A stretch of DNA of 64,000 nucleotides from Sapientia aquatica (GTDB lineage: Bacteria; Pseudomonadota; Gammaproteobacteria; Burkholderiales; Burkholderiaceae_D): contig NZ_SMYL01000005.1 in NCBI RefSeq assembly GCF_004358105.1, positions 62,001 to 126,000 of the forward strand, given 5' to 3'. Each line of letters starts with the position of its first letter. Position 1 is the first letter of the stretch. The notes under the pieces were generated by a model. It did no database searches, was not told the origin of the DNA, and worked only from the letters and a program-made list of their open reading frames with translations. Shown in pieces: positions 28,501 through 34,781 of the stretch. Both the position numbers and the translations under genes were made by a program.

Positions 28501-29481
28501 TTAAGGAAATGACGAGTAGTTCACTGGAATCCAAGCATAGCCTTTACCTTCTTTATGGATATAACCTAATCCAGGGAAAGATAAGTGAGCCGAACCAATC
28601 AAATAGCCTTCTTTGGCAGCGGCAGCATATTCTTTTTGACGCTCTGCTAATGCGGCTTTGTTGTCCGAATCAAAGCTGATAGTGATCGTTGGATTGGCAA
28701 ACTGAACGGAAGCCACATGCATCAAATCGCCCCACAACATTAATTTTTGACCTTTGCTTTCTACTGCGTAAATCGTGTGGCCTGGAGTGTGGCCGTGCGC
28801 TGCAACTGCTTTTACGCCAGGAACCAATTCAGTTGTGCCATCAAAGGTTTTGAATCTGCCAGCAGCAATGTACGGTTGGAATTCCATCATTGCGCCTTTG
28901 TAGCCGCCTTTATTTTCTTCCTTGGCACTGTCCATCTTCGCTTGGCTTAGCCATTCGTCTGCATCACGCTTGTCGGCGCGCACAATAGCATTGGGGAACA
29001 CCGTGGCACCTTCAGCTGTAGCTAAACCACCGATATGGTCGCCGTGCATATGGGTAATGTAGATTTCATCGACTTGATCCGGTGTGTATCCAGCCGCTTT
29101 TAAGCTCGCTACTAATTTACCCAAAGTAGGGCCAAACAAGCCACCTGCGCCAGTGTCGATTAATACCAATTTTGTCCCGGTATTGATTAAATAGCCGTTG
29201 ACTGAGGTTTCGACTGGATTGGACAAATGATACTTACTCATCGCTTTGTCAAAATCAGCGGATGAAATGCCCTTCAACAATTTATCCATACCCAATTTAA
29301 CGGTACCGTCGGACAAAGCAGTTACCTCAAAATCGCCTAGCATGACGCGGTAGTAACCCGGCGCTTGGGCTTTGATCTGTGGCGCGGCGGCGATAGCGGA
29401 TGGGGTGTTGAATGCGGAGAATGCCGCAACGGAAGTGAGCGTGGCTAGTACGCAAGCGCGTAATAATTTGCTTGAAGTCAA
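28501..29481 (-). CDS. Secreted metallo-beta-lactamase-fold hydrolase
   Basis: 326 aa from a TTG start at 29481, chosen because AGGAG (29489-29493) lies 7 nt upstream and a clean signal peptide follows (MTSSKLLRACVLATLTSVAA, cleavage after about residue 33). The frame runs on upstream to 29583, but that would bury the signal. Metal motif ITHMHGDHIGG, later HGHTPGHT and WGDLMH. This is the periplasmic class of MBL-fold enzymes, which includes lactonases and related hydrolases; no substrate can be assigned. It is a single gene, convergent with fliT. Confidence 0.88.
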   Translation of the reverse strand: MTSSKLLRACVLATLTSVAAFSAFNTPSAIAAAPQIKAQAPGYYRVMLGDFEVTALSDGTVKLGMDKLLKGISSADFDKAMSKYHLSNPVETSVNGYLINTGTKLVLIDTGAGGLFGPTLGKLVASLKAAGYTPDQVDEIYITHMHGDHIGGLATAEGATVFPNAIVRADKRDADEWLSQAKMDSAKEENKGGYKGAMMEFQPYIAAGRFKTFDGTTELVPGVKAVAAHGHTPGHTIYAVESKGQKLMLWGDLMHVASVQFANPTITISFDSDNKAALAERQKEYAAAAKEGYLIGSAHLSFPGLGYIHKEGKGYAWIPVNYSSFP

Positions 29482-29642
29482 AATAGTTCTCCTGAGACGA
29501 AAGTTAATTAAAACGGAATTTGTGATGTTGTGCATGGATTGGCTAACTGTTGCCCCTCGCCAATGTGCGCCATCATAAACCAATCTTAAATTTCGCGTTG
29601 AAGGCCGTTAAATTGGTAATTTCAAGAGAATCGTGCGCGGCG

Positions 29643-31271
29643 TTAATTCAAGGCTTTTATCAAATAGGCGGTTTTGTTGAGCACATTTAACGCCTTTTCG
29701 ATCACTTCTCTAGCCGACTCCGTGCCATGTTCGCAGGCTTCAATAATTACGCGGCTACTAGCGCACATGCGCAATGCGCTGACTTCGACGCCGTGTTGTG
29801 TGCCGCACAAAACAGGCTGCCCAAGTTGCCCGCGCAATTCAGCCAAATAGCTGGGCAAAATAGTTGGGTCGGTGATGGTGGTTTGTAATTTTTGGTAAAT
29901 CAGTTGGGTCTGCTCGCGACTCAGTGGGCGAGCTTTTTTATGCATCAAAATAAACGGGAAAATCGTCGTAATTTGATCCCAGCTAGCGCGTGCTCTTGGC
30001 ACAATTGGGCTGCGATCAATGCGTCGCTCCGCCATCAATGAAAAATGCGGCGAGGCTTGAATCGCGTCTTGAACCGCTGACGAAAATTGTTGCAAAAAAC
30101 CGCTGACATGCAGTTCAGGAATTGCACGAAACGCTTTGAATTCGGTCAACGCTGCTTCTAAGCGCAACAACAAGCCCCAATTGGCACAGTCATTTAATTG
30201 TTGGCTTCCATCCCAATGCTCGGGCCATTCTGCTTGCGCGGAGTAATCAGCCAATGCCGCCGGAAGCGGATGTTGCGATAAACGTGCGGATAAGTTGGGC
30301 GGGATGAACAACATTCCAGAAAACGCCGGGCCAGTTAAGAATTTAGAACCGGTCAGCGTTAGCATGCAGCCCAGATCAAGATAGGCGGCTAAGGTCTTGG
30401 TTGAAACACGGAATTGACAGGCATCCACCAAGACATCGACTTGCTCGGCATAGCGCTGGCGCAGTTGCGCGACATAGCTTGGGCTAGGCGCGATCAAGCC
30501 AGTTTTGGATACATCGATCATGATTAACAGCACCCGCTGTTGATTGGCGATGGCGTTGGTAATATGGACTTCGACTTCGGCATCAATGGCGGCTAGCGGC
30601 CTTTTGCTGCCATCAACATGGCGCAAAGCGATGCTACTAACTTCGATTGGGTAGGCATCTTCGATGCGATTAAATGCGGTGACCGTGCCGCCCAACGCGG
30701 CGTGGTCGCTAAAGTGTTGACCACGCACCGCTGGCGCAACGCCGCTGCCAGTTTCGCAGGCATCCATCATGATGATGCGCAGAGGTTTATCGTGGCTTTC
30801 GGCCAAAAGTTGACTGCAAATTAAATGCAAATCCGTGCCCGATGCGGCAAAGATTGTGGCGATGTTGTCTTTGGGTGTAAAGCCACACAATTGCTGAAAT
30901 TCAGCGCGCACGCGATCCAACTCTTGCCGATATAGATCGCCTTCTGAAATACGTCCCTGTTGGCGTATCAGGTATTGGTGTAAAAAATGGCTAGCGTTAT
31001 AGCCGCGCAACGAAATGGTGGAACCGGTCGACGAACCAAAGGCGACTAAGCTGGGATCAGGATGGCTGCCGCAGCCGTATTTGTTGACATGGGTTTCTAA
31101 ATCAATCGCTAGTCGCGCATCGCCGCCGGTTAATAGCAACTGGTCAGTACTCAAGGCTGATAATTGGTTCAGTGTTGGCGTGACTCGCGTTGGCAGGACG
31201 CGACTAGCTTTTGAGCGCTTTGGAGTTATCAGCGGACGCGCTGCTGCTTGCAATAATATGTTGGTCCTCAT
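29643..31271 (-). CDS. Class V-type PLP enzyme of unknown pathway
   Basis: 542 aa, longer than usual class V aminotransferases or cysteine desulfurases (about 400). The first 40 residues are basic and variable. PLP features: FAASGTDLHL, MMDACETGSG, LIMIDVSKTGLIAPS, VDACQFRVS, and the likely Schiff-base lysine in LTLTGSKFLTGPAFSGML. The ATG overlaps the preceding ATP-grasp stop as ATGA (31268-31271), so it is the third gene of a coupled operon with a decarboxylase. Function is not recognised; it may transaminate, eliminate or desulfurate an intermediate. Confidence 0.75.
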   Translation of the reverse strand: MRTNILLQAAARPLITPKRSKASRVLPTRVTPTLNQLSALSTDQLLLTGGDARLAIDLETHVNKYGCGSHPDPSLVAFGSSTGSTISLRGYNASHFLHQYLIRQQGRISEGDLYRQELDRVRAEFQQLCGFTPKDNIATIFAASGTDLHLICSQLLAESHDKPLRIIMMDACETGSGVAPAVRGQHFSDHAALGGTVTAFNRIEDAYPIEVSSIALRHVDGSKRPLAAIDAEVEVHITNAIANQQRVLLIMIDVSKTGLIAPSPSYVAQLRQRYAEQVDVLVDACQFRVSTKTLAAYLDLGCMLTLTGSKFLTGPAFSGMLFIPPNLSARLSQHPLPAALADYSAQAEWPEHWDGSQQLNDCANWGLLLRLEAALTEFKAFRAIPELHVSGFLQQFSSAVQDAIQASPHFSLMAERRIDRSPIVPRARASWDQITTIFPFILMHKKARPLSREQTQLIYQKLQTTITDPTILPSYLAELRGQLGQPVLCGTQHGVEVSALRMCASSRVIIEACEHGTESAREVIEKALNVLNKTAYLIKALN

Positions 31272-32551
31272 AATGACGCCCCGCAGCGTTGCGCTAGCAT
31301 TTGTCCAAAGGCGTTAAAGAGCTTGGGCATCTGAATTTTTTTGTAGGGAAAAATTTCAGCCGAATCCATGTTGTGCACGATCATGTTGCTATCGACTTCA
31401 AAAATCAGTAGCTTGCCATCCGGTGTTTGGGCGCAGTCGATGCCAACGTAATCAAGCCCTAGTTGCTGATAAATCGCGTTGAAGGCGGTGGCGTGCTGCA
31501 GCGCAAATGTTTGATCAAAGTTCGCCATACATTGCGCTTCCTCAGCGCGGTGATCGGCGTTTTCGAGCATGTCTGCGTTCAAATAATGCACCATCCAACG
31601 AGCAGAAATCGCCATGTGACAAACATAAGGCTTGCCGCCAATCAAAATGATGCGGTATTTGCGGAACAGTCCATCGTCATTGCTGTAATCAATAAATGGC
31701 GCGACGAAAAAATGATCTTCAGGTGATTGGATCAGATAGGCAGTTAAGTCGCTGACGGATTCGATCTTACTCAATCCGTTGCCCGCGTGCGAATCAATCG
31801 GGCGAATGATGATCGGGTAATTGATGCCGTGTAATTGTTCGACCAATGGCGCAGCGTTATCCTCAGCGCGGCAGCACTCCTCGAGCATGCTGCGGCTGAC
31901 GCGCTTTGCGGACGGCATGATGACGCCCGGTAGGTGACTGAGTTTGGCACAAGAACTGTCGCGCGATAATTGGCTGATCCTGCTCGGATGATTGATGACT
32001 GGACGCGGCCAATGATTTAAATACGAAGTCGCTTGCGCCAGCAGCAGTTGGTTTTCATCCGATTCGCTAATCGCTACCAACAGCACATCGTGCTCAGGAA
32101 TGGATTCGGGTAAGCCCATCGTTGGCGTGATGTACATCAGATCGAGCGCGATAGCTTGGTTTTCGATCAAAAATTCAAACGGCGAGTTAGCCATTAAATC
32201 GCCCGGCCCTAATAAAGCCAGGACGCGCAATTTGGCTGGAATAGCGGGGCGCTTGTAGTGATAAATTTGCTGAGTTTTTAGGGCAATCGCTTGCATCGAC
32301 AAGGCAACTTTGGTCTCGCCACGCAGGATCAAGTAGATCGCGATATCGAGCAGGGCATTGGCATCCATGGGATTTGTTTTTACGCGCTCATAAAGGCTAG
32401 CGCCGAGCGCCACCAACTCGGGGCTATTATTAAACGCCAAAGTCATTAGGGTCGGCAAGCCAATAAAGTCTGCTGCGGAATCGCTGCTCACGTCGGGCAT
32501 TGCAGCCGCTTGATCCTCTAAAACTGTCTCTGGCAAGGGTGAAGTGAGCAT
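31268..32551 (-). CDS. ATP-grasp ligase-like protein with helical N-terminal domain
   Basis: 427 aa. Residues about 35-100 are helical and repeat-like (LVALGASLYERVKTNPMDANALLDIAIYLI). Residues about 200-420 resemble an ATP-grasp fold: INYPIIIRPIDSHAGNGLSKI as nucleotide-binding lysine/glycine loop, FFVAPFIDYSNDDGLFRKYRII, GLDYVGIDCAQTPDGKLLIFEVDSN with metal-binding Glu/Asn. Such enzymes join a carboxylate to an amine through an acyl phosphate. It sits 20 nt after a decarboxylase that could generate the amine. Substrates are unknown. Confidence 0.75.
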   Translation of the reverse strand: MLTSPLPETVLEDQAAAMPDVSSDSAADFIGLPTLMTLAFNNSPELVALGASLYERVKTNPMDANALLDIAIYLILRGETKVALSMQAIALKTQQIYHYKRPAIPAKLRVLALLGPGDLMANSPFEFLIENQAIALDLMYITPTMGLPESIPEHDVLLVAISESDENQLLLAQATSYLNHWPRPVINHPSRISQLSRDSSCAKLSHLPGVIMPSAKRVSRSMLEECCRAEDNAAPLVEQLHGINYPIIIRPIDSHAGNGLSKIESVSDLTAYLIQSPEDHFFVAPFIDYSNDDGLFRKYRIILIGGKPYVCHMAISARWMVHYLNADMLENADHRAEEAQCMANFDQTFALQHATAFNAIYQQLGLDYVGIDCAQTPDGKLLIFEVDSNMIVHNMDSAEIFPYKKIQMPKLFNAFGQMLAQRCGASL

Positions 32552-32571
32552 AGCGATTCCGTTGGTGTTGG

Positions 32572-34038
32572 TTAGCTGAATTGAGGCGTTAACAGCAATT
32601 CGTCACCCAGTTTCAATGTCGCTTCGATCAAGCGATCCACATCGAATTGGCGAGTGCGATGATTAACAAAAGCAGCCCGAATAACGATGTGTTGATTAAC
32701 CGTGGTTGACGAAGGTGCGACGAGTCCGGATTCCTGCAAAGCAATCACTAGTTCCGCATTGAAGGCATTGCGTTGTTCAAGGCTGAAATTGGCGTTGCCG
32801 TTATGACGAAAGCACACAATATTTAAGTTAACGGGCGCCATTAACGTAAGTTGAGGGTGCTGGGCAATCTGACGCGCTAAATAGTGGGCTAACTCACACG
32901 TGTTAGTGATAATTTGACCAAGTTTGTCAGCGCCAAAGTTAGCAATCGTAAACCATGTCTTTAAGGCTCGAAAACCGCGCGACAAATCCGGCCCAAAATC
33001 ACACGGCCAAGGCGAACCCGCCGCCATGCCGCGCGTTTCGCGTTTGAGATAATTCGCCGGCGCGGCAAAAGTCGCTAATTGATCGGCCGCGTCGCGCACT
33101 AAAATGTAGCCCGCGTCATACGGTACTTGGCCCCATTTGTGGAAATCAAACGCGATTGAATCGGCAAGTTCAATGCCGGCTAATTTCGGTGCAATTTGAG
33201 CGGAAAACATGCCCAAAGCGCCATACGCGCCATCGATATGAAACCAGCAATTTTCGCGCTTAGCCAGTTCGGCTAACGCCGCTAAATCGTCAATCGCGCC
33301 CACATCAACCGTGCCAGCCGAGCCGACGATTAAAAATGGCGTGTAGCCAGCTGCTTGGTCTGCTTTAATCGCCGCTTTCAATTGGGCGATATCCAATTCA
33401 AATCGCTCATTGACTGGAATTTGGCGTAAAGCGGTGGTGCCAAATCCCGCTAAATCCATTGCTTGACTGACGCAGCCATGCGCGCCAGTTGACGTATAAG
33501 CCGTTAATTTTTGCGAGGCCTGATCAATTCCGTTTCTGCGTACTTGTCCGCCAAGATGCTTGGTGCGGGCGATCAGTACGGCGATTAAATTGGCGAGCGA
33601 TGTGCCTGTGACGAATAGGCCGTGCGCGGTTTCTGGAAAGTGAAATAGCTCGCGCATCCAGGTTTCAATTTGCTTTTCGACCGCAATCGGGATTTGTTCG
33701 CGTCCACCGACATTGGCGTTTAAACCCGCGGCCAACATATCGGCCACCATACCCACCGGCGTGCCGCCCCCCTGTACCCAGCCCATAAAGCCGGGATGCG
33801 AATTCCCAATGGAGTAGGGCATGATTTCGGTCAAAAAACGCTGATGCAATCCGCTCAGCTCGCTGCCTTGTGCAGGTAATTTCTCAACGAAGCGCTCTTT
33901 GACTTCGTTCGGAATCGGCTGCCAAACCGGACGTTGGCGCAGATGTTGGGTGTAATCGAGTATGTCTTCCAGCATGGCATGCGCCTGCGCACGAAAAGCA
34001 GTCCAATCGGTGGGGTCTAGTGTTTCTCCAGAATGCAC
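32572..34038 (-). CDS. Group II PLP-dependent amino acid decarboxylase
   Basis: 488 aa, aromatic-L-amino-acid/glutamate decarboxylase family. N-terminal PVWQPIPNEVKERF and HPGFMGWVQGGGTPVGM; PLP histidine region TSTGAHGCVSQAMDLAG; WFHIDGAYGA with the PLP aspartate; Schiff-base lysine in AFDFHKWGQVPYD. The start is GTG 34038, with AGAAGG 6 nt upstream. First gene of a three-gene operon with the ATP-grasp and class V enzymes. Substrate (aromatic, acidic or diamino acid) is not readable. The Trp/Gln after the lysine depart from the common HKW(M/F) pattern. Confidence 0.85.
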   Translation of the reverse strand: MHSGETLDPTDWTAFRAQAHAMLEDILDYTQHLRQRPVWQPIPNEVKERFVEKLPAQGSELSGLHQRFLTEIMPYSIGNSHPGFMGWVQGGGTPVGMVADMLAAGLNANVGGREQIPIAVEKQIETWMRELFHFPETAHGLFVTGTSLANLIAVLIARTKHLGGQVRRNGIDQASQKLTAYTSTGAHGCVSQAMDLAGFGTTALRQIPVNERFELDIAQLKAAIKADQAAGYTPFLIVGSAGTVDVGAIDDLAALAELAKRENCWFHIDGAYGALGMFSAQIAPKLAGIELADSIAFDFHKWGQVPYDAGYILVRDAADQLATFAAPANYLKRETRGMAAGSPWPCDFGPDLSRGFRALKTWFTIANFGADKLGQIITNTCELAHYLARQIAQHPQLTLMAPVNLNIVCFRHNGNANFSLEQRNAFNAELVIALQESGLVAPSSTTVNQHIVIRAAFVNHRTRQFDVDRLIEATLKLGDELLLTPQFS

Positions 34039-34181: not shown

Positions 34182-34781
34182 TTACAATGTTTTGATGAAG
34201 TCGTGGAGGCCAGTTAGTAACATTTCAACCGACATGGCAGTCAAAATTAAGCCCATTAAACGCTCAAAAGCGATCATGGTGCGTTCACCCAGCAGACGTT
34301 GCATCCGCTCGGCACTGATTAATACGATTAACCACACGATGGCGACAGCAACTAATGCGGCCAAATGCGCGGCGACATCGGCCCGACTGTCGGACGAAAA
34401 TAATAACACCGTCGCCAAAGCGGACGGGCCAGCCAACGCAGGAATGGCCAGCGGCACGATAAACGGCTCGTGCGAATGATCAATATCGCCAAAAATGCCG
34501 CCCGGCTGTGGAAACACCATACGCAATGCGATTAAAAACAAAATCACGCCGCCGCCAATCCGCAATGACAGATCGGACAATTGCAGCGCATTCATAAAAT
34601 GCCGGCCAAAGAACATAAACAACAGCAAAATCAAAAACGCGATCGCGCATTCACGCACCACGACGCGCCAGCGGCGGGCAGGTGGAACGGAAGACAGGGC
34701 GCTAACAAACAGAGGAACGCCACCAAACGGATCGGTGACTAGGATGAGCAAGATAAACGTCTGGAAAAAATTTTGAGCCAT
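34182..34781 (-). CDS. marC: MarC family integral membrane protein
   Basis: 199 aa with six hydrophobic segments (TFILLILVTDPFGGVPLFV, AFLILLLFMFF, IGGGVILFLIALRMV, VPLAIPALAGPSALATVLL, LVAVAIVWLIVLI, RLMGLILTAMSVEMLLTG). The NPFGG-like TDPFGG near the N-terminus and the PLAIPALAGPSA motif are diagnostic. The family's role is unresolved; the old link to multiple antibiotic resistance has not held up. Transcribed away from the DUF1289 gene, upstream of the decarboxylase operon. Confidence 0.92.
   Translation of the reverse strand: MAQNFFQTFILLILVTDPFGGVPLFVSALSSVPPARRWRVVVRECAIAFLILLLFMFFGRHFMNALQLSDLSLRIGGGVILFLIALRMVFPQPGGIFGDIDHSHEPFIVPLAIPALAGPSALATVLLFSSDSRADVAAHLAALVAVAIVWLIVLISAERMQRLLGERTMIAFERLMGLILTAMSVEMLLTGLHDFIKTL

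Follow-up and report, generated by a model that had tools for sequence, protein, structure and literature searches.

In methanofuran biosynthesis, an amino acid is decarboxylated by MfnA and the ATP-grasp ligase MfnD then acts on the amine, and we know of no class V partner in this route. In butirosin biosynthesis, an ATP-grasp ligase and a PLP decarboxylase (BtrJ/BtrK) are used together, the residue being decarboxylated while attached, and BtrK belongs to the fold III decarboxylases. Formation of amides without an NRPS, by an ATP-grasp enzyme, was described for the E-64 pathway (Cp1/Cp2) and the dapdiamide pathway, E-64 contains agmatine as its amine part, and the E-64 route uses a second amide synthetase of the ANL family and an epoxysuccinate warhead, according to the available part of PMC12568646. 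ATP-grasp genes are also named in the available part of PMC10194956.

The window (the whole analysed stretch of 64,000 nucleotides from Sapientia aquatica) carries three adjacent genes, designated here as DEC, GRASP and PLPV, with the following features.

32572..34038, minus strand: DEC, 488 aa, GTG start; group II PLP-dependent decarboxylase by profile (PF00282, 3e-63)
31268..32551, minus strand: GRASP, 427 aa; ATP-grasp-like ligase, N-terminal region helical and probably TPR-like
31268..31271, minus strand: ATGA overlap of the GRASP stop and the PLPV start, read from the sequence
29643..31271, minus strand: PLPV, 542 aa; divergent class V-like PLP enzyme without a curated family

DEC stayed under the NCBIfam cut-offs of RhbB (164.6 bits, cut-off 900), PanP (136.7, cut-off 606.1) and MfnA (88.7, cut-off 299.4), and is thereby unlike the methanofuran enzyme. 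Unlike BtrK, it belongs by profile to group II, and no carrier-protein gene was recognised by eye in the window cassette. Compared by description and not by sequence, the cassette would share with the E-64 and dapdiamide pathways the amide formation by an ATP-grasp enzyme without NRPS; the differences are the ANL-family synthetase and the epoxysuccinate of the E-64 route and, on the other side, PLPV, the like of which is not mentioned in the available part of PMC12568646. The view of the earlier note that no described pathway has this set agreed with the NCBIfam scan, in which no named decarboxylase pathway model was matched, and a description of the three-gene set or of its contexts was not found in the literature searched.

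On balance, the three genes probably make up a self-contained pathway in the cytosol that needs no NRPS and leads to a small, amidated, dipeptide-like metabolite. As judged from its family and pocket, DEC would decarboxylate a (perhaps polar) amino acid to an amine; GRASP, as its family resemblance and its partners suggest, would activate a carboxylate with ATP and join it to an amine; and PLPV would make or modify the amino-acid part. Such a compact cassette in environmental bacteria probably yields a metabolite not yet described, and three genes are small enough for the whole to be expressed.

Gene layout and immediate neighbours

The three minus-strand ORFs were confirmed at the coordinates above, with a gap of 20 nt between DEC and GRASP and an ATGA overlap between GRASP and PLPV, just as the earlier note had read them. 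Its statement that the genes include no transporter or regulator also held, none of the three products resembling either in the Pfam and NCBIfam scans.

Two adjoining genes were considered as further members and rejected. The MarC gene upstream (34182-34781) is set apart by a 143-nt gap, in which a terminator-like hairpin is found, and such sites (10, versus 8.0 in shuffles) are not commoner than in shuffled sequence. An MBL-fold hydrolase gene (28501-29583) lies on the strand of PLPV about 60 nt or more downstream of it; a homologue (E <= 1e-10) was present in only 1 of 193 other loci, namely that of Rhizobium tumorigenes (L155), where it adjoins the set on the other strand with 124 bits. The N-terminus of the hydrolase is signal-peptide-like by eye, and its best NCBIfam match is the AidB lactonase, under the cut-off.

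Sequence families of the three proteins

By sequence, the parts of the cassette resemble known superfamilies. DEC matched PF00282 at 214.2 bits (cut-off 27), and in an alignment of 41 rows with a mean column identity of 65%, H187, D269, A271, H300, K301 and Y330 were invariant; on this curated profile match and the conserved PLP-site residues, DEC belongs to the group II PLP decarboxylases, as had been noted before. Its best-scoring solved relative among PDB sequences was 4obu, which we take to be the tryptophan decarboxylase of Ruminococcus gnavus (its PDB title reads decarboxylase domain protein), and in which F98, H120, L126, L336, L339 and W349 presumably form the indole pocket. The PLP-site residues, L336 and W349 are kept in DEC and F98 is replaced by the still aromatic W, whereas H120 is replaced by N, L126 by Q or H, and L339 by E in 35 of 41 rows. 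Thus the DEC pocket appears to resemble that of the tryptophan decarboxylase partly, and because three of these six positions differ in kind, Tyr and Trp look less likely as substrates; a polar amino acid is a guess.

GRASP had no family match over a curated cut-off in Pfam or NCBIfam, a point against the amide pathway, and RimK/GSH-synthetase models were matched below threshold (PF08443 at 17.3 bits, cut-off 21; TIGR00768 at 25.8 bits, cut-off 143.4). In 67 aligned rows, R250, K298, R300, D372 and E385 were invariant and D387 was present in 64, and R250, K298, D372, E385 and D387 are assumed to be the Mg/ATP residues of ATP-grasp enzymes. An ATP-grasp fold is predicted from sequence motifs, the invariant residues being ATP-grasp-like, and the earlier naming as an ATP-grasp ligase is plausible. 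A repeat-like N-terminus had also been claimed. In the window protein no TPR match was found with Pfam, but TPRs are clear and many in long GRASP homologues, which makes the repeat-like reading plausible. Long ATP-grasp homologues with many TPRs were seen in L168 and L173. S. aquatica itself carries a GRASP paralogue on contig C11 (L071:8692-10062), with weak TPR matches, next to a ComEC-like competence gene.

PLPV gave no significant match in Pfam, NCBIfam or PDB sequences; an 18-row PLPV profile reached a best E of 0.41 against PDB sequences, nothing was obtained against PF00266 at E <= 1, and a relation between PLPV and DEC was not detected by profile. All 62 aligned rows have D283, Q286, K310 and R501. 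Class V aminotransferases have a D-x-x-Q ... K motif and a C-terminal Arg, both of which are found in PLPV, and its pattern D-A-C-Q...T-G-S-K resembles class V PLP enzymes; K310 is likely the Schiff-base lysine, and R501 stands at what we take to be the usual alpha-carboxylate binding place. For comparison with SufS/IscS, a class V protein of S. aquatica that reads like SufS (L227) was used, with DGAQ followed by K 26 residues on. PLPV and these enzymes are alike in D-x-x-Q, in K 26 or 27 residues later and in GP...G thereafter; they are unlike in that PLPV has no PF00266 match and is 542 aa long, and, by hand alignment, its E-T-G presumably stands where cysteine desulfurases have a His-containing motif. 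PLPV thus resembles class V enzymes by motifs only: the motifs and spacing fit the class proposed earlier, but no profile match stands behind it. In L041, PLPV carries a C-terminal methyltransferase domain (scanned), and the ORF in L039 is of similar length.

Distribution and cohesion of the set

Among 300 genomes sampled from the order, PLPV was present in 38, DEC (counted at E <= 1e-100) in 44 and GRASP in 57, six of the GRASP matches being weak (E > 1e-40). Strong GRASP and DEC matches were found in 37 of the 38 PLPV genomes, the exception being G016; the association of PLPV with DEC and GRASP is far beyond chance in a test that ignores kinship (Fisher p about 4e-39 and 1e-34). DEC was present without PLPV in 7 genomes and strong GRASP without PLPV in 14. 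The five genomes with DEC but neither GRASP nor PLPV, all of one genus, count against a three-gene pathway.

The neighbourhood search for the triplet across Burkholderiales, suggested by the earlier note, was made with 40 order loci drawn from GRASP matches, one of which is the GRASP paralogue of S. aquatica itself. All three genes were present in 28 loci, GRASP and PLPV in 2, DEC and GRASP in 1 and GRASP alone in 9, so that the triplet recurs in the order, although the locus with DEC and GRASP but no PLPV likewise counts against a three-gene pathway; in G034 and G256, DEC is on another contig.

A scan of named genomes with the PLPV profile gave 149 relatives, and in the best 80 of the 149 loci, all three genes were found in 58, GRASP and PLPV in 9, DEC and PLPV in 1 and PLPV alone in 12. 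In 9 of these 12 PLPV-alone loci, the thioesterase end of an NRPS lies directly upstream of PLPV; in L076, L116 and L130, PLPV is close to the contig end, and L076 retains a GRASP fragment. Five of the loci with GRASP and PLPV are on short contigs (L084, L124, L140, L143 and L149), with a DEC fragment in L140. The named and order loci are not independent, since 10 of the 40 order contigs recur among the named loci. Full sets are carried, among others, by Gallionella, Sideroxydans, Sulfuriferula, Methylobacter, Crenothrix, Undibacterium and Leptothrix, genera among which are iron oxidisers, methanotrophs and sulfur oxidisers, and full sets also occur in MAGs labelled Geobacter and Caulobacteraceae. 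The three-gene set thus reaches outside Burkholderiales. One cassette (L082) is on a contig labelled Candidatus Riflebacteria; this label may be a binning error, and the nDJH isolate series of this contig is shared with PLPV-bearing Deltaproteobacteria MAGs.

In a phylum-wide sample, PLPV was present in 25 of 398 genomes. Twenty of the 25 PLPV regions comprised 13 with all three genes, 2 with DEC and PLPV, and 5 with PLPV without DEC or GRASP. The two with DEC and PLPV (L215 and L220) lack GRASP, which speaks against a three-gene pathway; the N-terminal extensions of PLPV in these loci were considered as GRASP and rejected, having no GRASP similarity. The extension in L224 arises from an overlapping reading frame, and GRASP is in another frame there.

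The genes are also held closely together. Overlaps or short gaps between cassette genes are common among the relatives, the median intergenic gaps being -4 and 2 nt (71 and 70 pairs, respectively, with starts picked by script), and all three pairwise fusions occur in one frame: DEC-GRASP in L046, L103 and L129, GRASP-PLPV in L089 and L111, and DEC-PLPV in L090, where the fusion is followed at once by a long TPR-type GRASP. Against a tight unit, PLPV is on the strand opposite to GRASP and DEC in L100, L119 and L151. The commonest flanking cluster, c2, was found in 14 of the 40 order loci and, judged by its one scanned member (GGDEF/EAL), looks like a wide family of signalling proteins; each of the other flanking clusters was found in at most 6 of the 40 loci, partly from near relatives. 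In the locus sets, no flanking family, dedicated exporter or regulator was found to accompany most copies, and DEC, GRASP and PLPV therefore look like the unit. The conservation of the set across genomes supports the earlier proposal of a single operon, which proves to be widely conserved; the amide or peptide-like product from an amino acid, as proposed with it, is plausible.

Exchanged partners and alternative readings

Outside the complete set, PLPV and GRASP are found beside other genes. In L167, PLPV is located between an ATPgrasp_ST gene and a gene for an Orn/DAP/Arg-type decarboxylase (PF02784/PF00278), followed by a two-module NRPS, and in L217 an ATPgrasp_ST gene comes after PLPV. In L221, L225 and L226 (three genomes, one family), the gene of a D-Ala-D-Ala-ligase-like (Ddl-like) ligase is divergent to PLPV, and this divergent strand weakens its reading as a partner. 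Antisense ORFs as neighbours of PLPV in L221, L225, L226 and L208 were discarded, real genes being on the other strand, and the Ddl match comes from these. On two rhizobial plasmids (L157 and L158), PLPV follows an NRPS of 8,914 or 11,090 residues with a thioesterase end, and a phosphopantetheinyl transferase gene is near. The presence of these other amide-bond formers next to PLPV speaks for the amide pathway. Two loci, L156 and L208, count against that pathway and against partner exchange, as PLPV is there without DEC and GRASP and no replacement ligase was recognised alongside.

GRASP, for its part, has a branch beside a SerC paralogue in place of DEC and PLPV in 8 of the 40 order loci (L053, L063, L066-L070 and L072), where GRASP and the SerC-like phosphoserine transaminase gene are in tandem and no DEC or PLPV is in the stretch. 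The paralogue matched NF009112 in all three of these eight loci that were scanned against NCBIfam, and the seven SerC-linked GRASP rows in a quick tree formed one group (support 90).

It is tentatively proposed that the amide-bond maker around PLPV was exchanged several times (TPR-ATP-grasp, ATPgrasp_ST, Ddl-like or NRPS), as was the decarboxylase in at least one case, so that enzymes unrelated to each other came to serve one chemistry, and that PLPV founds a new family of PLP enzymes and marks a class of amide metabolites not described before. This exchange of partners is the most unusual feature of the loci and the least certain in meaning, adjacency not being function. As relatives of PLPV also lie in very large NRPS operons of legume symbionts, a single assay could shed light on both groups of clusters.

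The same neighbourhoods bear on a possible, though less likely, alternative, in which PLPV tailors the peptide or amide once formed, and hence is movable between ligase and NRPS systems. Its place directly behind NRPSs ending in a thioesterase and its occurrence beside three kinds of ATP-grasp-type ligase are consistent with this, as is a quick tree in which the NRPS-linked PLPVs (6 rows, near-copies removed) form one clade nested among the cassette PLPVs, with the window PLPV as its sister at support 88 (the mark of the tool being 95). The invariant R501, however, would fit a free amino acid as well.

An unlikely alternative is late decarboxylation, whereby GRASP would load an amino acid onto an acceptor and DEC would decarboxylate the attached residue, with PLPV acting before or after. 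R113 and R333, invariant in the sequence alignment near the pocket region of DEC, could hold an extra carboxylate, and L167 offers an ATP-grasp gene and an Orn/DAP/Arg-family decarboxylase gene beside an NRPS; but the window cassette is without a recognised carrier-protein gene, as stated above, and DEC without a ligase in some genomes is a better fit to a free amino acid. Glycines 111-112 are common to DEC and 4obu and so are no argument for a larger DEC pocket. Least probable is a general catabolic module for amines or amino acids whose three genes share only regulation, which would suit the lack of a dedicated exporter or regulator in most copies, but a ligase-like enzyme and fused genes point to synthesis, and the patchy distribution, with PLPV in 38 of 300 genomes, is unlike that of a core route.

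In the five NRPS-linked loci in which a motif search located it (L105, L106, L108, L153 and L154), three of which are close relatives, the last adenylation domain before PLPV reads, by eye from the motifs, D, I, L, ..., L, G, L, I, W, and both adenylation domains of L167 have nearly the same pattern, which we take to be the glycine code of adenylation domains, a reading for which the literature searched gave no source. In the NRPSs of L157 and L158, several adenylation domains look near-identical around their specificity motifs. In Rhizobium sp. 11515TR (L156), the stretch contains PLPV without DEC, GRASP or NRPS, and PLPV adjoins, by eye, a glutathione S-transferase-like gene.
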